Assembly (NCBI GenBank): GCA_947568835.1
Contig: OX387602.1
Location: forward strand, 26,339,021-26,403,020
Length of the DNA stretch: 64,000 nucleotides
Source of the DNA: Protonemura montana
Lineage: Eukaryota > Arthropoda > Insecta > Plecoptera > Nemouridae
Direction of reading: 5' to 3'
Position numbers and translations under genes: made by a program. Positions 10,768 to 36,413 of this stretch are shown one piece after another. Under the pieces are notes generated by a model. That model was not told the DNA's origin, made no database searches, and worked only from the letters and a program-made list of their open reading frames with translations. How positions within the stretch are numbered: position 1 is the stretch's first letter; each line of letters starts with the position of its first letter.

Positions 10768-12664
10768 ATGACTGACAACAGCGATAAACAGGAAGATATC
10801 AGACTATTTGATCTTCAGAAGCAATTCCTTAATTGTGTTCCTGCTAAAATTCTCTCCTTTGCTGATGCATTTCCTCATCGAGCCGACAGCAGCTGTGATC
10901 GACAAGATAAATTGCTGGAACTTACTGTGAATAAACTGCTTGTGAAAAAGTACCCAGTGAAACCAAATTACCAGCAACTGTTTATCAGATTCCTTATAAC
11001 GCACGTAAGCAAGCGAGATATTTTTATTTCATCAATTATTTTGTATAGCGAATTGTTTTGTGGGCGACTGTCGATGCTGGATTGTCCACCTAACCTCAAA
11101 TCAGATAGCTAATCTAGCAAAACGCCAGTGACCTTGATATCAGCTACAGCTTTTGAATATATTTTTTAATTTAATTTTTGATTATTTATTATTTTACTGG
11201 ATTTTCTTTTTAGTTGGAAGATATCGGTGCTGAAGTGTCAGAAAATATTTACACGGCATATTGCAACTTACTCACGCTTGATGACAAAAGTCACGAGACA
11301 CACTTCAAACATTATGTCTTGAACACTACAGAATCAATTGTTTTGAAGGAAAGCTCGTGTTTGATCTCTCAGGGCACCACTGGACTTCGCACGTGGCAAG
11401 CAGCAAAGGCTTTAGCAGAGTGGTGTCTGTTCCGCCAAGACTTTGTCCGTAATAAGAATGTTCTTGAACTAGGTTCAGGCATCGGACTTACTGGACTTGC
11501 TGTGACCTTGTCTTGCGATCCAAAGAGTTATTGGTTTTCGGACTGCCATCCTGCTGTTTTGAAACTGTTGCAGTATAATGTAAGGGTAAATTTAGTGCAC
11601 TCTAACAAAATAGAAGATGAAAAAGTTGTAAGCTTGGCCACCCCATCCAAAACCAAAAGTGAAAACCCTGATGTTCTGGTTGGCTGCAAAATAAAGAAAA
11701 CTGATGTCAAAGTGATACGCCTCCCTTGGGATGATGTAGAAAACTCCAAAACTGCATCAGAAATCAAACCAGATGTCATTTTAGCCGCAGGTTAGTGTTC
11801 CTTAACTAATTTTGAGGTACTAACATTGGGTTTATAGTTAGTCAAAGTGTCTGAAATTACGATATGAAATTTCGTAATTTTTTCTAAGATTTCTCACATT
11901 TGAGACTGATTTTTACTCGTAAGGTTTTCATTTATCCTAACCACAATAATTGATGTATATCTAATGATATTTGGAGATGTAATTATTTAAAGGTAAAGGT
12001 GTGTTGAAAAAGTCAGCCGCACGGGCTAAACCATTACCATGTGTTGGAGGCTTTGCTTAGTAGACTGCTCAACTTAAGCGCTAATACTCTAACTTACTAT
12101 AAATCCAGTTGTATTATTCTTGTAGTTGGGTTGGTTGAAATGTTTTTTCCAAAGTTGTTTGTCTTGCAGATGTAGTGTACGACGACAGCATATCCCCTGC
12201 ACTTGTGAAGGCCCTGAAACACTTTTTAACTGGGAAGCAATCATCAAAATGCACCCTATTGATGGCATGTACAGTGCGAAATCCAGAGACACTGTCCAAC
12301 TTTATCTCCTTGCTAAACTCTGGTAAGCACATGTGATTTTACAATCCAGTGAGGTACATCAAAAGGAATGTAATATTTTAACATTGGTGTTGCCCAATTA
12401 GGTTGCAACAGTGGTGTTTTATCTAATAAAAATTGGATCAATATGTCACTTCACCAGCAACTCTAAAACATAATTAACATTTCTCATAAATGTATTTTGT
12501 TAGGAATTAAAAAGTCAATATGCCAGGTTGGTTATGTTTGTGAAATTTCCCCTTTAGAAGTACAAGGCCTACATTTGCTGGAAGAAGAAGCAGCGAAGCC
12601 AGAAATATTTCAGTATTCTGCTGATTCAGCTGTGAAAATATACAACATCAGCGTTTCCGTCTGA
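10768..12664 (+). CDS. EEF2KMT: Protein-lysine N-methyltransferase EEF2KMT (FAM86 family)
   Basis: SAM-dependent seven-beta-strand methyltransferase; the family trimethylates a lysine of elongation factor 2 in the cytosol. Exons: 10768-11004, 11214-11790, 12170-12322, 12504-12664; all joins are in frame and give 375 residues (human about 330). The N-terminal FAM86 segment (about 1-110) is followed by the family stretch LISQGTTGLRTWQAA. SAM motif I is VLELGSGIGLTGLA near residue 162. Further motifs are FSDCHPAVL, the post-beta-4 motif ILAADVVYDD formed across the 11790/12170 junction, and TVRNPET. The start MTDNSD is chosen because it gives the usual family N-terminus; the frame is open further upstream, so an earlier start cannot be excluded. 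The region before AADVVY (about 210-260) is longer and Lys/Ser-rich compared with human and is probably a lineage insertion. Confidence 0.92.
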
Positions 12665-25347: not shown

Positions 25348-28300
25348 TCGTTGTAAACAGCATTACATGTTTTCAACTGTCAAAATCAGATCCATAGCAA
25401 AGTTTCCTTACCTTGTCTGCACTCTTCTCCTGATAAATAACTCAGGGCTACCTGTCTACTTCCAACAACCTACTGGAGATTCTTGGCTTTGACACCACAC
25501 AAGATGATGGTTGTCACCAATAAAAATCTCAACCAAATCTCAAACCAACCTTAACTAACCTGACAAAGTGCAAAATTGGTTTTAGCTGGAAGCACTGAAC
25601 CATGCCTGTTTGTTTCCTTAGGAGGAAAGCTTGGACATAATGGGACAGTATAAGCCTGAGATATTCTGCTAGCAGGTGTGTATTTGTCTACTGCTTTGCT
25701 CGTGCGTTGTCTGTTGGCTGGTGATCGTTGCTTGACAGTGTGGCGTGTCCCCTCGAGCAGGTGGCGGCGCTGGGCCCGGCACGGCGCGAGCCCTGCGCCA
25801 AGTGCGGCAACCCCGTGTTCATCGCGGAGCGGCTGCTCGTGGGTCGCCGCCTGTTTCACCGTGCCTGCTTCCGCTGTGCCAGATGCGCTCACCAGCTCAG
25901 TCTGGCCAACTACTACGAAACCGAAGATGGTGCCTTCTGCTGCGAGGCGTGTCCTGACGAAGTTGATGGGAAAGCCACGCTAGAATCACGCAACGAGTAC
26001 AGCCGAGACTTTGAAGAGATGCTGGAAAGCGAAGTGCCACCGGTCACTCGTGAAGTAGTAGTGACGGAAGCCAAGCAGGATGTGGCAATGTCAAACTTCA
26101 TGATCGGTCAGTTACAATGGGAGGAGAAGGAAGTGTCCCTTCCTCTTCCTCCCAGTATTGTCAGAGACCAGGATACAGACTATCAAGGACAGCTTAGCAC
26201 AGTAGACACTGAAATCAGTAGTCGTGAAACTAGTGCGCCAGTTTCTTTAGCAAGTGATAGCAGCGCAAGAGCCGAAAGTGTAGATAATAGTAACGAGCAT
26301 CGTTTGTATTTTTGTACCAAAACAAACTCGTCCGCGGCTGAGAATGACAGCCTTGGGGCCGAGGAAGTTCCTGAAAGTGTAAGCCGAAGTAGTGTTAGTA
26401 AATTTAGCGATAGTGTCGATTATCAGCCATCAACTGCCACCAACAAAACAGAAGACTGCATTAATGATCAAAATGAGCTCACCACAAAACGTACCAAAGA
26501 TTTGGACGACGAACCTAACTCCATTGTAAAAATGAGAATGAAAATGTTTGATGGTGACCAGCAAAAGGAAAAAACGCCACAAAAAAAATACTCCAGTAGA
26601 ACATCTATTAATCTGTCCAGTAAGTTTGAGGAAGGTAACACAGTTAGCAAAAATCTATTACAAGACTCTGATAAAACAACATCAATGGAAGAAGAGAAAA
26701 TATCTGAGGGTGTTGGCTTGGAGTTTTCAGAAGGTGAGTCATCCAATGTGGAGGGAAGTGAGTTAGTAGTAGCTCAGAAGGATCAAGATCTCAATTTCGT
26801 GACAGGCTCTGTGAGCAATGTTGATGTTAGAATGAGGGAAGATGATAATGTAAATAATGCAAACGACATAGAAATGAGCCAAGAAGTAATACCCCTTAAT
26901 AAGGAGAATGCAGAGAGAATAAGCAATGCTGCCATTATATTGGATCCTGTGTTGCCATCGATAATTGTGCAAACACCTTCAACTGAATCACAGGATAATA
27001 ATCCTGTATCCAACAGCCATGTTGACACAGTTTTAGACACTGAAAACCTATCTTCGGGTGACATTCCCGGAACTGCATATTTGGAATGCGTGGAAGGAAA
27101 CGACTTTCCAGTCGAGAAACCTATATTCGAACAAGACGCAGAAGATGAAAAACAGTCAGAAATCACATCAAAACGTGTGTCCATGAAAGACGATCCAATT
27201 GTTTATCCAACCGAGTTGAATCCATTTGGTGACGACAGCGAGGAAGAGTCTACCGTGCCAAGTGGAAACCCATTTGAGGACAAGGATGAGCTGCCAGAGC
27301 CAACGCCGCCCAAGGGCAAGCCCCCACGGCCACCGCCCCCACGAATCCTGGTGAAAACCGAAGAGAAAAGCACAGGCAGCATGAAACCTGTTGAGGAAGG
27401 GGCTTCCAAAACCGGAGCGAACCCCTTCTGGAGTGATGGAGAGGAACCGGAGAGCGAAGACGAGACCAACGCTGCAGCCAACATGCCGGTCCCACTGCCC
27501 AGGTCGTTCCTGTAAGCACGAGTTTAATTACTACCTACTGCCCTTATTCGTACCAAAGAGACTTCTCAATCCAAGTTACGCTTACCACAATTGATTTATT
27601 TATTTATTTGTGAAAACAGCTTAGGAACTAGTATACATTTCGGTGGCCGCTAGTCAGCACAGGAGACAACATTGTAGGATTATAGGATTATAGGATAAAT
27701 AGGATTCTAGTAAGTCATGGCCAAGGCCAGTGCCAAGGCTGCTAAAAATCATTGATTTGAATAAGAAAAAAATCCACTGTAAACGTTTTCACAGAACAGA
27801 TGGTGATTTATAGCCAAGTAACTCAATTGCAAACAGTTGCAACAGCTCGAAGCAGAGAACAGTTGGTCTTCACTTGTCAAACTTTCCAGCCTGAAATTTT
27901 TTTAGTTTTCTATGGCAAGCTGACAGTTTGCGTCATTTTTGCAGCAAAGTCACCGTTCCGGAACCGAGTCCAGCTCCTCGGCTCAGCCTTGGTGCCGCCA
28001 GCAGGTTCGGGTCGAGCAACTCGCTGTCGAGCACTGACTCATCTGCCAATAGCACACTGCGCCGGCGCAAGAAGACGGCGCCACCACCCCCGCTTTCCAA
28101 CGAGATCTGCGCCACGCCTCCACCCCCGCCGCCCCCTGAAGATGCAGGTGCTGTGACGACGCTGCCACGGCATCGCAAAGCTCGGCCAGCTCCGCCTCCC
28201 CCGGGACAAGTCACGCCCCCACGAAGGATCATCTCCGCTGCCGAGTGCGACAAGTCAGAGAAGGAGATGGCCAACCGCAGCCGACAAAGCAAGGGGGACT

Positions 28301-31411: not shown

Positions 31412-31922
31412 ACCCGAACCCCACCCATACTCTGCGTGCAGGTACTACGTCTAGGATCAAAAGATTGCGCTGGTTGACGCTAACATTAAGTACCGTTCCT
31501 ATATACTTGATGCTAGACGTTGGAGCTGCACCGGTCGGGCTGTATAAAGGTGAGGTTTGGGGTCGTGGGAACGGCCCGCAAAAATGGCAGCGCAACTGGC
31601 GCTGGGGGTCACGGCGCTACCTTACACTACGGCATGTTCGGTGAAACATTTACAAATGAAAGAACCAATAGGCCCTGTGATCAGGCAACGGAGTTTGACT
31701 CGCGTACCTCCAGTCGGGCTGTAATGCTTGCCATTTCGCGCTAGATCTTGATAATAGTGTGAGCATATATTCATGGAGTAGCCGAGTGCAGCCGCGCCGC
31801 TTGGTGGGACGGGGAACGTTTGCAGCTTTGCAGGGGCGAGTTCTTTTTTCTCGGCGCTGTCACTGGAATGGTCTATTTGCTAGCTGGCGTTCAGATATTT
31901 GACCATACTTCTTATAACGAAG

Positions 31923-32000
31923 AAAAAAAAAACGGCGAGAATCGAACGCGGGTCTAGCCGCACTGCAAGCGGACATTTTAACCACTCGACCATTAGAGCA
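31923..32000 (-). repeat. tRNA-like module 2
   Basis: Minus strand: A box TGGTCGAGTGGTTAA (31978-31992), a 7-nt loop TTGCAGT on a CCGC/GCGG stem resembling an anticodon arm, B box GCGTTCGATTCTC (31937-31949), and T10 directly after (31923-31932). T-stem pairing is imperfect, so it is not a standard tRNA. Confidence 0.65.
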
Positions 32001-32396
32001 GATGAACGTTGGGATGTTTTTATGTTCATATAAATTACTTAAAGTATAGAGAAGAGATGCACGATGGTTATTAGCAGTGTCGGACTGGCCAGGGCAGCCA
32101 GGCGGCAAATGCCGCCGGGGCCTCCAGCCGGCCGGGGCCCCTGGGACCCCCATTTACAAAAAGGAAGTTTTTTAAAACATTTTTTAATTTTTAGTCATTT
32201 GATTATGTTGTCTTAATGTTGCAAATAGCCAGTGCTTGTTATCATTGAGCCACGCTGCCCTGATGGCAACAAGTTGGTGGAAGTCGTATATAAACACTTG
32301 ATTTTAGACTTGGTAAAAAAAAATCATGAAAGTTATTTTTCGGATCATCTCTCCCCATCCCTTTACTTGACCCATGTTCCAGGTGAATTGAAAGAC

Positions 32397-32475
32397 AAAA
32401 CTAGGAGGTGGCGGGAAGCGAACTACGGGCCCCACGCAGTGGAACTCACGACCATCCCACTGCGCTACGAGGACA
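32397..32475 (-). repeat. tRNA-like module 3
   Basis: Minus strand: A box TAGCGCAGTGGG (about 32456-32467) fits the consensus fully, B box GTAGTTCGCTTCC (32414-32426) approximately, then T4 at 32397-32400. It resembles an elongator-Met type body. Confidence 0.6.
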
Positions 32476-33596
32476 CATATCCTATTGCAGATTTGTTATC
32501 AACATGCAAGTCAATAAAACAAGATGTAAATAAATCACTTCTAGTAGTAATATTTATGTGTGAATCCTGATGGGTAGGCCACTCATCGTACACGTGTGCA
32601 CTGACGTCGTGTTTACAGTCCAGGCGTTGGGTGTGCAGTCACTTCAATTTCCACTCAAAAAATATTGAAAAATCAATGGACGTTTTTTACGTTTCTTACG
32701 TTTATTCTTGATTTTTTAAGATTCGCCCAGACTGTGGTCTATGGGGTAGTTTGCACCCCCGAACATGATGGGCTATTATGGGCACGATTCCGTTATTTTA
32801 TAGCTTCAAGGTTGGCAGCTCAGCAAGGTGGGTACACGGGTTACCGACCGATGGCCGTGATTTATCGACATTTTTATTGATCAAGTACATTTGATATCCA
32901 ACAGATTGCGTTTTCGATCACTTTGTGCTTTAACTCGACTGCTGGTTCGGTGATACTTGTTTGGTATGGTTGACCAGGGTACCTGAATGCGAGCAACGGG
33001 GTTCGACTGGCGTTCCTCCAGTCGGACTTCAAGGCTTGCATTTTCGCGTTAGATCGTGGCAACTGGTGAAAGCCCATTTTTTGGAGTGGCCGCGTGCCTC
33101 AGCACTGCTTGGTGTTTGGGGTCCGGTCCGGCATTTACACATCGTGTAGAAGCGAAACCTTCTCTCTCTATTAGCGCATGGTTGATATCGTGGTTGTGGT
33201 GGTGATGGTGGTGATGTTGGTGTTGATGTTGGTAATACTGGTAAATTTAGTGATGTTGGAGATTCGAGTGTACGTTATTTTCGTTATATTGCTTGTGGTA
33301 ATGTTTGTTAATTTCTGTAAATATGTCTTTTGATGATATATTATAATTAACATTCCGAATTAATTCTGTATATATTCATTTTTCCCCCTTTTCCTACTTC
33401 TTCTTATATATTTACTTTATATAATTTGCGTACTTCAGTTACATTTCCTTTAAGTAACAGTAGCCATCTTTTCATTTAACGTTCCCCACCATGGCCAATA
33501 TTGTTTCGTCGATGTTATCACCCCCTGGTAGCCTGGCTAGGAACTAAAACACAATTTTAATTTTTTTTCTTGCCCTGGAGGATGATTGGTGTGATT

Positions 33597-33685
33597 AAAA
33601 AAAGATGTAGGCAACGAGGATCGAACGCAGGACGTTTGAAACCTGATGCACCCACATAAACCGCTCGACCACAAGACCCGCTCTC
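33597..33685 (-). repeat. tRNA-like module 4
   Basis: Minus strand: A box TGTGGTCGAGCGGTT (33659-33673), B box GCGTTCGATCCTC (33616-33628), T7 at 33597-33603. Confidence 0.65.
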
Positions 33686-34062
33686 CATGATACGTTTTTT
33701 TGGGATACAAAAACTGTTCAACTGTGACAACTCCGTCAAAAAATCCGAAAAAATCTCAAACACTGCCTCCATGATTTTCACTAAAAGATATTTCGATGAA
33801 ACATTATAAACATCAGCTTCAGTATTGCCCATCATCGTACAAAATTAAAAATACGTTCGAAGTCTTGTACAGTTTACTTATCTTGGATCTTTCGCTATGT
33901 ATGAACAGACTGTCGTATATCACCACTTGGACACCCAGGACGACGGTGCCATACTCTGGCGCTGGCCCTTAGGTCTAGCATCAAGCGTATAGGAACGATT
34001 ATAATGAGTGCTACGCATAATCAGCGCCACCTGTTGACAGGATTTTGTACTACACTTTGGAC

Positions 34063-34164
34063 AAATATGTTGATATTTTCCTGCTGTATTTTCATAGTTA
34101 TTTTCCGATTAGTTAATGAATTAGATTAAAAATCAGACTTGGCAAATGTCTTCAATTATTACAA
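34063..34164. repeat. Spacer of a 90-bp inverted repeat (arms 33971-34062 and 34165-34257)
   Basis: The two arms are inverted copies of the CTTGATGCTAGACG block and extend through CAGCGCCACCTGTTG. They match over about 90 nt with scattered differences (my visual estimate 80-90%). A third copy of the right arm is at 35370-35470. It could be a MITE-like fold or two nested insertions. Confidence 0.75.
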
Positions 34165-34264
34165 GTCCAGAGTATAGTACAAAATCCTGCCAACAGGTGG
34201 CGCTGATGATGCTTAACACTCATTATCGTTCATATATACTTGATGCTAGACGTAGGAGCACGGG

Positions 34265-34532
34265 TGCGTGAGCGACTGGCGCTCCGCGCCAGTCGCTCAC
34301 GCATGCTGCTGGGCCCTGGCGCGGAGCGCCAGGGCCCAGCAGCGTGCCGGTGCGCCCGTGCACCTGAGCGCGCTTCGCGCGCTCAGGTGCACGGGCGCAC
34401 CGGTGGACGTCCAAGCGCGCTCCGCGCGCTTGGACGTCCACCTTAGTGCGCTGTCGCGCGCGAAGCGCGCGACAGCGCTTTAAAATTGCGGAGCGCGACT
34501 GGCGCGAAGCGCCAGTCGCGCTCCGCAATTTT
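34265..34532. repeat. Array of six perfect GC-rich hairpins with 3-nt loops
   Basis: Six adjoining perfect inverted repeats. H1 34265-34303 (18-bp stem, loop TCC), H2 34305-34343 (18, GGA), H3 34347-34403 (27, TTC), H4 34402-34442 (19, TCC), H5 34448-34478 (14, GAA), H6 34482-34532 (24, GAA). Every loop is three nucleotides closed by GCGC/GCGC. The stem sequences differ between hairpins. On one strand or the other every loop reads C-GAA-G or C-GGA-G. Arms were checked base by base. Open frames in both strands across it are composition artefacts. Confidence 0.95.
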
Positions 34533-34555
34533 CGTGGTATCTACACTGTGCGCTC

Positions 34556-34679
34556 AAAAAAAAAATAAGATGTGTGCCACAGCAGTAGTTGTGCTGACGG
34601 GATTCGAACCCGGGACCCCGGCAATCTCATGATTATTCACAAGAGGTAGTGCCTTGTACCGCACGACCACGCTGACATC
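34556..34679 (-). repeat. tRNA-like module 5 (best B box)
   Basis: Minus strand: a Leu-type 5' part GTCAGCGTGGTCGTGCGG with its A box at 34654-34671, a long variable-like region, consensus-perfect B box GGGTTCGAATCCC (34599-34611), and T10 at 34556-34565. The 5' and 3' acceptor sequences do not pair, so it is tRNA-like rather than a tRNA gene. Confidence 0.7.
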
Positions 34680-34764
34680 TAGTTACACTGGCATTTTTAT
34701 GGTATATAATTTCTTCAGACTGCAGCTACCATATGTGAATACTTTGAATGTCGTATTCCAATAG

Positions 34765-34861
34765 AAAAAATATCCTGTCGGTGAGCGGGATCGAACCAGG
34801 TCACACTGTAGCTTGATGGTTCCGATGTAACGACATGTCCATTGTGCTACGCAGACGGTCG
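34765..34861 (-). repeat. tRNA-like module 6
   Basis: Minus strand: A box TAGCACAATGGAC (34837-34849), B box CTGGTTCGATCCC (34787-34799), T6 at 34765-34770. The would-be acceptor arms pair at about five of seven positions, the best in the cluster. The body resembles an Arg-type tRNA. Confidence 0.65.
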
Positions 34862-35093
34862 CCCCTGCTGTGGTAAACTGAATATATTTTAATTTCATAT
34901 CTGATGTCCCTGTTTACCGGGTTGACTATAGGCACATGTCATTGACGGCACTCAATGTATACTACGGTTCGGAGTCGCATTCTTCTTTGCGTTTCAGTGA
35001 ACCATCAAGACCCCGGCAGCATGGAGATCGCTTCACACTACATCGCCTCTGCCATGCACTATCAAAGATTGTGCAAGCTATGTCGTGAAGAAC

Positions 35094-35180
35094 AAAAAGC
35101 GGAGCGGACAGGACTCGAACCCGGTCACATCCACATTGCTCTTTCGAGGAGCGACTTTTCCAACCGGCCATCGAGACGAG
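35094..35180 (-). repeat. tRNA-like module 7
   Basis: Minus strand: A box GATGGCCGGTTGG (35160-35172), long variable-like arm, B box GGGTTCGAGTCC (35111-35122), T5 at 35094-35098. Confidence 0.65.
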
Positions 35181-35535
35181 ATGGTCCAAGATGGAACAAA
35201 GAGATACATGAATAGCAGAAGACGACTACAGTGTAATAATGAAAAGAGTCAAAAATACTTTGAGAGTTTCCATGGATGAACGAGCGATGCAATATTTGCA
35301 GCATTCAATGAATGCCAGTCGAAATTCACAAGCCGAACACTTGACCAAATATGAAAAAAATATTTCAAGTTCAGAATGTAGTACCAATTTCTGCCAACAG
35401 GTGGCATTAATGCCAGTTTTGTACTTAACACTAGTTCTCATGTTCCTATAAACTTGATGCTGGACTTAGGAGCTGCACACAGGGTATAGGAGGGGTTTGG
35501 GGTCGTGGGAACGGCGGCGAAACTGGCGGCCGCGA

Positions 35536-35552
35536 CTGGCGCGAAGTGCCAG
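35536..35552. repeat. Single triloop hairpin in a second copy of the unit
   Basis: CTGGCGC-GAA-GTGCCAG: a 7-bp stem with one G.T wobble and the same GAA loop as H5 and H6. It occupies the same relative place, before a tRNA-like pair, 1 kb from the six-hairpin array. Confidence 0.8.
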
Positions 35553-35592
35553 GAACGCCCGGCAATTACTCTACTTTTTAAACCATACGCCC

Positions 35593-35714
35593 AAAAAAAA
35601 AGGCAAAAATCGCACTTAGTGTCGTGCCGTGTACGTGATTCAAACCCGGTATACCTTCAATCATGTGATCACGTGATCGATGAATTCGATGCTTTTAACC
35701 GCACGACCAAGCGG
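35593..35714 (-). repeat. tRNA-like module 8 (relative of module 5)
   Basis: Minus strand: CCGCTTGGTCGTGCGGTTAA A box (35697-35714), B box GGGTTTGAATCAC (35635-35647), T5 at 35605-35609 and T9 at 35593-35601. It shares GGTCGTGCGGT with module 5. Confidence 0.6.
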
Positions 35715-35802
35715 AAATATTTTGTCAGATGCATTTTTGACGTATATAAGTCTCATGACTGCATCTACCGCTGGTGGATGTTGGATGTCGTAAATCAACG
35801 GT

Positions 35803-35898
35803 AAAAATGTTCCTCCGTCAAGTGGATTCGGTCGAGTTAGCGGATACCTTTGAAGTTACTGAAGCAGCGACTATGCCAATGTGCCACGAAGACGGCCT
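35803..35898 (-). repeat. tRNA-like module 9 (relative of module 6)
   Basis: Minus strand: A box GTGGCACATTGGCATA (35872-35886), decayed B box CTCGACCGAATCC (35824-35836), T5 at 35803-35807. Its 5' part GCCGTCTTCGTGGCAC matches module 6 closely. Modules 8 and 9 therefore duplicate the 5-6 pair. Confidence 0.55.
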
Positions 35899-36413
35899 TA
35901 TCTTGCAAAGAAAAATGAATCTATTTTAATTTCATGTTATAAAAGTCGGCCTACTGTGTGGGCAAACGACGTCGACCGCTCCTTTTGCATCGTTCTTTTA
36001 AGAACCGCATTTCCGTTGGCAGTCCGGAAATTTATCTTCTAGACTTATTAAAATATGACGTACAATTATTACTCGTCTACGCAAACGGCTGCCAAAAATA
36101 ATAGTCCAGAGTGCCTCTGCAACTCCAATATATGGGTTCTCACCATTTGCCACGATTGATCTCGAATTTGCAAGCATTAGAGCCCGACTGGGATTACGCC
36201 AGTCAATGCCCGGGTCTTAATTACATTTTTTTGCCCATCTCCCCCTGGTAAGTTACTCGCCCCCCATTTACTCTTATTTGTAAGGTTTCATTGAGGACGC
36301 ACTGGTGTTAAGACGCACAGTGACCCTCAGCGCAATCTGTTGGATATGAAATGTACTCGATCAATCAATGCTGGACTTCGGTCGGTAATTCTGATATTGA
36401 TACGTGTGATGTT

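Follow-up and report, generated by a model that had tools for sequence, protein, structure and literature searches.

Probable template switching in a six-hairpin array with GNA-type loops, carried by a non-autonomous hAT-type transposon of Protonemura montana

What process builds a run of perfect hairpins whose stems differ while their loops are all of one type? The question is raised by a locus of Protonemura montana within the window, the stretch of 64,000 nt that we analysed (C1:26339021-26403020, where C1 is contig OX387602.1). An initial annotation had described six adjoining perfect hairpins there and had proposed either a snap-back mode of synthesis or selection for single-strand folding. 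Its description of the array is borne out exactly: positions 34265-34532 contain six perfect hairpins with stems of 18, 18, 27, 19, 14 and 24 bp, every stem has GCGC/GCGC at its loop, each loop is 3 nt long, and all six loops read GNA on one strand and TNC on the other. Mini-hairpins of the d(GCGAAGC) type, in which sheared G.A pairing occurs, are extraordinarily stable. The hairpins here resemble them in presenting a C-GNA-G loop on a GC stem; those mini-hairpins are known as short oligonucleotides, whereas here the motif forms the tips of genomic palindromes of 14-27 bp. The array is made up as follows.

34265-34532, unstranded: array of six perfect hairpins with 3-nt loops, from stem and loop reading and DNA folding
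34265-34303, unstranded: H1, 18-bp stem, loop TCC, CTGGCGC core common to H2 and H6; no flips in 30 copies
34305-34343, unstranded: H2, loop GGA on an 18-bp stem; a tree built from the flanks requires at least 7 flips
34347-34403, unstranded: H3, 27-bp stem, loop TTC; at least 5 flips
34402-34442, unstranded: H4, 19-bp stem, loop TCC; at least 5 flips; overlaps H3 at 34402-34403
34448-34478, unstranded: H5, 14-bp stem, loop GAA; stem variation between copies in both arms; no flip
34482-34532, unstranded: H6, 24-bp stem, loop GAA; homologous to the one imperfect core hairpin that related satellite and palindromic repeats contain; no flip
35520-35567, plus strand: core hairpin in decayed form, with loop GAA, lying outside the transposable element described below

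Folded as DNA, positions 34240-34560 (321 nt) reach −184.6 kcal/mol against −89.7 ± 4.0 for 100 dinucleotide shuffles, none of which is as low (z −23.7). The GNA and TNC strands are assigned equal folding energies by a model that may be without a term for the GNA loop. Since H3 and H4 have two positions in common, a single strand has no room for both at their full length. Furthermore, H1, H2 and H6 share the core CTGGCGC-GNA, and H3, H4 and H5 share GCGCGC; the six loops are thus not six independent observations. A tRNA gene was set aside, as neither ARAGORN nor Rfam calls one, and no Rfam family matches at the gathering score (19 sub-threshold matches are mostly to miRNA hairpin models, far under their cut-offs). 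T-arm or B-box-like motifs (GGTTCGANYCC, at most 1 mismatch) lie on the minus strand at window positions 34600, 34787, 35111, 37013 and 37165, in surroundings that look tRNA-like by eye; such motifs are mildly enriched, with 8 against 3.3 expected and 3 of 100 shuffles reaching 8. Elsewhere in the window, a LIM-domain frame (25725-27515) and a lysine methyltransferase-like frame (11214-11795) are ordinary pieces of host-type genes.

The array is one of many. A search of the 258.5-Mb assembly (34 contigs) with positions 34240-34560 as the query gave 186 matches; with 40 of 340 candidates scored, at least 36 places carry most of the array, at 77-100% identity to the query across at least 262 bp, so the many loci predicted from the single window do exist. 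At least 28 of them (17 on C1, 6 on C2, 3 on C16 and 2 on C11) are long-form, with damage to a hairpin in some cases (H5 in L036, for example), and at least 8 are shorter, at 262 nt. Homology among the copies extends far outside the hairpins. C1 represents 33.1 of the 258.5 Mb, yet it holds 17 of the 28 long-form copies. In one copy (L034:1501-1862), some 41 nt of GCGCGCTC-like repeats have enlarged H5. A viral source was considered and rejected: the 25-letter core occurs at no place in viral_contigs, and 6 matches to an 18-letter version are taken as chance. Our literature search gave no recognised account of this repeat or of any GNA-loop hairpin array.

How far does the loop rule reach? Among 177 loops in 30 aligned copies, 71 are GAA, 24 GGA, 32 TTC and 48 TCC, so that in 175 one of the two strands shows a GC stem tipped by a C-GNA-G triloop, the near-confinement to GNA/TNC that had been anticipated; the exceptions are CAA and GAC. 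Genome-wide, TGGCGC-N{1,9}-GCGCCA occurs at 863 places against 48 for a reversed-pattern control; the 50 distinct places listed comprise 46 with a 3-nt GNA/TNC loop and 4 with a loop of 8-9 nt. The shorter GCGC-NNN-GCGC occurs at 2,962 places against 2,397 for its control, and among the 50 distinct sites listed, 10 have GNA/TNC loops, 4 of these 10 inside the array repeat. The genome-wide check, run in part, thus upholds the rule for the TGGCGC sites and not for GCGC-NNN-GCGC sites in general, and the rule is confined to one repeat superfamily rather than holding for palindromes at large.

The array is cargo of a multi-copy, non-autonomous hAT-type DNA transposon. Elements of the hAT superfamily have terminal inverted repeats (TIRs) beginning with CAGTG and make 8-bp target site duplications (TSDs). 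Here the ends read CAGTG...CACTG, the TIR is CAGTGTCGGACTGGC, and 8-bp duplications flank four of the four copies in which both ends were read, two of them perfect (GCCCTAGC/GCCCTAGC and CAAGAGAG/CAAGAGAG) and two with one mismatch (GTAGTTAC/GTAGTCAC and TGTAGTAG/GGTAGTAG). What led to the choice of these four copies, which measure 6,877, 6,290, 5,876 and 5,671 bp from end to end, was the second left-end copy that follows in them. The window copy is without a right end, and its parts are given here.

32075-32089, plus strand: left terminal inverted repeat CAGTGTCGGACTGGC
32075-35321, plus strand: remnant of the non-autonomous hAT-type element, reaching from its left end as far as homology with other copies goes; the window copy has no right part
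35008-35009, unstranded: site of a loss of about 230 bp relative to many other copies

The left end CAGTGTCGGACTGG, with single-letter changes in some copies, is found in 17 of the 23 left sides compared and starts at 32075 in the window; one of these 17 has a small internal loss just after it, and of the remaining left sides four are truncated within the first 78 bases and two are without CAGTGTCGGACTGG. The right end reads CCAGTCCGACACTG in L090-L092, with one letter different in L093. This true right end (...GGAGCCAGTCCGACACTG) lies farther out than a common inner boundary (...CACATCTA), after which the left end appears once more in some copies. The common part of about 4 kb was dropped as a candidate for the complete element when the right TIR was found farther out. 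A second left terminus inside the element, after ...CACATCTAGC, was seen in L020, L022, L027, L033 and L035, with a short one in L013. The array itself is internal: some 2.2 kb separate it from the left end, and the right end is a long way off. No hAT transposase was found in the copies: the longest stop-to-stop frame in four 3.5-kb right-hand stretches is 120 aa, so the four copies look non-autonomous, and window positions 32075-35321 hold no frame of 150 aa or more, while the hAT dimer domain has 77 matches elsewhere in the genome. The element thus resembles other non-autonomous hAT elements in its CAGTG start, its 8-bp duplications and the want of a long frame in the scanned stretches, and differs from them in its length of 5.7-6.9 kb, its satellite-related cargo, the hairpin array and the second left-end copy inside it. 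As a separate observation, the Helitron helicase-like N domain gives 150 scored matches among 207 candidates (C7, C8, C33 and others), mostly at about 213 bits and in frames of 797-2,061 aa, many of them about 10-40 kb apart on C7 and C8, which looks like a recent Helitron burst or Helitron-rich contigs.

The cargo has relatives outside the transposon. H6 is homologous to the single core hairpin of palindromic elements of about 1 kb (L044-L047) and of tandem arrays with units of about 1.75 kb (L120, 1,752 bp). The typical core, GCAAAATTGGCGGGCGCGACTGGCGC-GNA-GCGCCAGGAGCGCCCGGCAATTTTGC, is imperfect: counted outwards from the GNA loop, its 26-bp arms mostly have 7 perfect pairs, followed by a tandem G.A/A.G mismatch and by further pairs interrupted by a single G.G mismatch. 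In the related repeats it is preceded by the same upstream module as the array is (AAGTCCAGAG...TAGGAGC), and the window holds these further pieces.

34154-34259, plus strand: module CAAGTCCAGAG...AGGAGC, which lies upstream of the core hairpin in related repeats
33965-34062, minus strand: second, inverted copy of the module, with two arm pairs 82% and 90% complementary and 102 nt between the inner arms
35336-36361, plus strand: to the right of the element remnant, one part of the ~1.75-kb satellite unit in diverged form (about 71%)
31599-32074, plus strand: diverged (about 72%) copy of another part of the ~1.75-kb unit, left of the element

This homology suggests that a hAT element captured a satellite-type unit of about 1.75 kb. 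Compared with the relatives, H1-H5 stand in place of the segment between module and core, and these five further hairpins would have arisen upstream of the core hairpin that is now H6. A search for a donor of the H3 arm gave 59 matches, by position all in known arrays except one in the collapsed array L131, and no donor or intermediate for H1-H5 was found. Decayed or collapsed arrays are L123, L124, L126 and L131, and L050 has a fused H1/H2 hairpin. Between 28.85 and 31.16 Mb, C1 furthermore has several short tandem arrays (three were sampled), each about 4-9 units long, with a period of about 1.7-1.8 kb and the core hairpin in the units.

How the hairpins change can be read from the differences between copies. 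We aligned 30 of the 36 array places (28 long-form and 2 shorter), taking the best-scoring ones; the other six and decayed arrays such as L123-L126 and L131 lie outside the alignment, in which decayed arrays are thus under-represented. Across 3,473 stem cells 98.4% are paired, an upper figure since the aligned copies score best and decayed arrays exist; the pairing structure was taken from the window copy, which favours that structure in cell counts. Both sides have changed in 24 of 118 stem pairs, giving 68 double-changed cells, a level that none of 500 shuffles attains; structures slid along the alignment give 1-3 such pairs. Changes were counted by Fitch parsimony on a tree that uses flanking sequence alone, in 1,671 columns; of its 27 inner branches, 15 have strong and 9 weak support. 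The stems show 77 changes in the five-prime and 84 in the three-prime arms, and at least 43 are joint changes of both, against 2-7 in eight slid controls. Exchange of blocks between copies would raise the slid controls as well and thus does not explain the joint changes. In H6, the arm states GA/GA and GA/TC are separated by four changes on the tree, with three rows (GA/TT) set aside. Mismatches in the stems comprise 21 G.T, 22 A.C and 33 others; G.T and A.C being equal, there is no bias of the kind expected from transcribed RNA.

Outside the arrays, L129 and L044 have identical left arms, and their right arms differ by four substitutions, all of which match the left arm in L129, in flanks that are about 88% identical. 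The difference is consistent with a multi-base change in one event; L129 is also without the module-to-core segment, so that more than one event took place there. L127 has perfect 26-bp arms and a loop that is inverted relative to the module (TTC in the module direction), so correction and inversion are found together, and L128 has 16 perfect pairs with the loop unflipped. Arms are thus homogenized, with changes templated by the other arm. On the other hand, the decayed and collapsed L123, L124, L126 and L131 indicate that correction does not always keep up.

The loops are inverted as well. With three rows in which the H5 loop is missing, and with the CAA and GAC loops omitted, the flank tree requires at least 17 flips, at least 7 in H2, 5 in H3 and 5 in H4, and none in H1, H5 or H6. 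Clean flips that keep the middle base separate well-supported sister copies in H2 (L033/L035 and L015/L020) and in H3 (L037/L038 and L027/L036). In H4, the middle base differs too in L022/L034 and L019/L026 (GAA against TCC), and these changes could be due to exchange between copies. If flips were even and independent, all 17 would fall in some three of the six hairpins with p of about 1.5e-4, an after-the-fact figure. Stem length does not explain the pattern, as the flip-free H1, H5 and H6 have perfect arms of 14-24 bp.

Imperfect relatives follow another pattern. Their core, with its G.A mismatch, occurs at 235 + 235 places, a few of which are imperfect H6 hairpins of arrays, and among 100 listed the loops are 69 GAA, 24 GGA, 6 GTA and 1 AAA. 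When the whole genome was searched directly for this core with its loop flipped, the result was 0 against these 470. The loop also reads GNA in the module direction in 43 of 43 module hairpins (53 GNA hairpins minus 9 without the module and minus 1 of fused H1/H2 form), a set found by the motif itself and containing many tandem or duplicated copies. Some 470 cores thus keep the mismatch and only three perfect ones lie outside arrays among the 50 listed of 68 perfect sites, so correction must be rare there. In yeast, the consulted part of PMC8604942 describes template switching that homogenizes arms and inverts spacers, with inversions only where arms exceed 9 bp; an imperfect core with 7 perfect pairs that does not flip therefore fits template switching.

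We consider it probable that the array is shaped by template switching during replication, that is, by quasipalindrome correction and spacer inversion within the cargo of a transposon, and not by HUH recognition. The snap-back-like copying suggested at the outset finds support, in that arms change together or come to match by templated changes and loops are inverted. During copying, a strand would switch template at a hairpin. An intrastrand switch would copy one arm onto the other, making imperfect arms perfect and placing new mutations in both arms, and a switch to the opposite strand would turn the 3-nt loop round as well. H1-H5 probably originated when the polymerase turned on its own or the sister strand at a very stable loop. 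The GNA rule is in part inherited through the common cores; for the rest something else would maintain it, either selection for fast folding or GC-biased correction. That the arms were converted by template switching in replication, and not in some other way within the hairpin, is an inference.

The rates of change do not all follow from template switching. Changes per column amount to 0.26 in the eight pairs by each loop, 0.97 in outer pairs, 1.20 in the flanks and 1.44 in G/C flank columns. Neutral copying from arm to arm should move changes to both arms and not lower the rate, so the slow inner pairs are a misfit; they could reflect selection on the inner hairpin, G/C-biased correction or other protection. 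Choosing copies by score inflates conservation of the whole array, while the inner pairs are not obviously singled out by that choice. Together with the strict loop polarity of the satellites, these slow pairs provide the main opening for a functional reading. One such reading is that single-strand DNA folding is selected because the hairpins are recognition or processing sites for an HUH or other hairpin-binding enzyme. Invariance of 85 of 96 inner stem columns, the 175 GNA/TNC loops and the related repeats that read GNA in the module direction throughout, with none of the 470 flipped, would agree with this, as would the abundance of Helitron proteins with their 150 scored matches. However, conservation was measured on best-scoring copies, the 43 module hairpins were picked up through the motif itself, and loop polarity has been repeatedly lost in H2-H4. 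A Helitron end was rejected, since the element ends in hAT TIRs and 8-bp TSDs, which are not of HUH type, and neither of the two 10-kb Helitron stretches read contains the hairpin motif, weak evidence as their exact ends were not found. The suggestion of HUH recognition sites in the initial annotation thus fares poorly, with the hairpins internal to the element, and we regard selection for single-strand folding as unlikely. A composite is improbable too: a mismatch-bearing, GNA-tipped hairpin would be a selected, strand-polar DNA structure read by a protein; it would have spread in satellite units, been taken up by a hAT element and, freed of the mismatch in the array, have become self-templating, flipping and multiplying by repeated snap-back.

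Descent in common, with a few old variants passed between copies by gene conversion or recombination and little happening inside hairpins, would suit the 36 places 77-100% identical to the query, the poorly supported 9 of 27 inner branches of the flank tree and some hairpin states that conflict with it. Such exchange is nevertheless distinctly unlikely as the main process, given that slid pairs should then rise equally but show 2-7 against 43 joint changes, that clean flips part well-supported sister pairs, and that L127 and L129 are perfect versions outside arrays. Strong covariation of the arms is what transcribed hairpins or a small-RNA source under selection for pairing would also produce, and yet selection on an RNA from one strand should tolerate G.U, at odds with 21 G.T against 22 A.C; with recurrent loop inversions, no Rfam family at the gathering score and 19 sub-threshold, mostly miRNA models, a structured RNA is very unlikely, and strong covariation in a repeat need not imply a functional RNA. 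Finally, hairpin-rich GC DNA is hard to assemble in general; an assembly artefact or chance is nonetheless extremely improbable in view of at least 36 diverged places and distinct 8-bp TSDs, and a chance or one-off structure is ruled out by those places and the fold z of −23.7.

Template switching of this kind is a known mechanism, and our literature search gave no recognised account of it in the present setting. In the portions consulted, PMC8604942 describes yeast spacer inversions in 10 genes, recurrent in four, and PMC8794818 reports template-switch footprints in RNA genes, with 69 loop-only clusters in rRNA genes. Quasipalindrome correction in those portions resembles the case here in homogenized arms, templated multi-base changes and the long perfect arms associated with inversion, and the reversible inversion of 2-5 nt spacers, including ttc/gaa, is like the loop inversion here. 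Set against these systems as there described, the present case differs in its six-hairpin array, its at least 36 transposon copies and at least 17 inversions in one family, as well as in a near-constant GNA loop and slow change by the loop. Inversions are few and scattered in the consulted parts of both papers, whereas here they are dense within one family of one genome. With at least 36 six-hairpin arrays, at least 17 inversions and some 470 flip-free imperfect relatives in one genome, one can measure here how arm correction and loop inversion depend on how perfect the arms are, on the type of loop and on position. The hairpin elements of sponge mitochondria, as far as the consulted text of PMC2800124 describes them, are likewise dispersed and multi-copy, with some high-GC stems and with stems conserved; they are organellar and vary in their loops on conserved stems, whereas here the loops obey GNA and the outer stems covary.

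Foldback and Galileo elements, with their long inverted repeats, find a likeness in the near-complete palindromes of about 1 kb among the related repeats, although the palindromic relatives here are without an established transposase or target duplication. These palindromes (L043-L051) are about 1-2 kb long, with arm identities of 81% in L043, 93% in L044 and 96% in L045, and in L047 and L051 the nearby flanks are inverted too.
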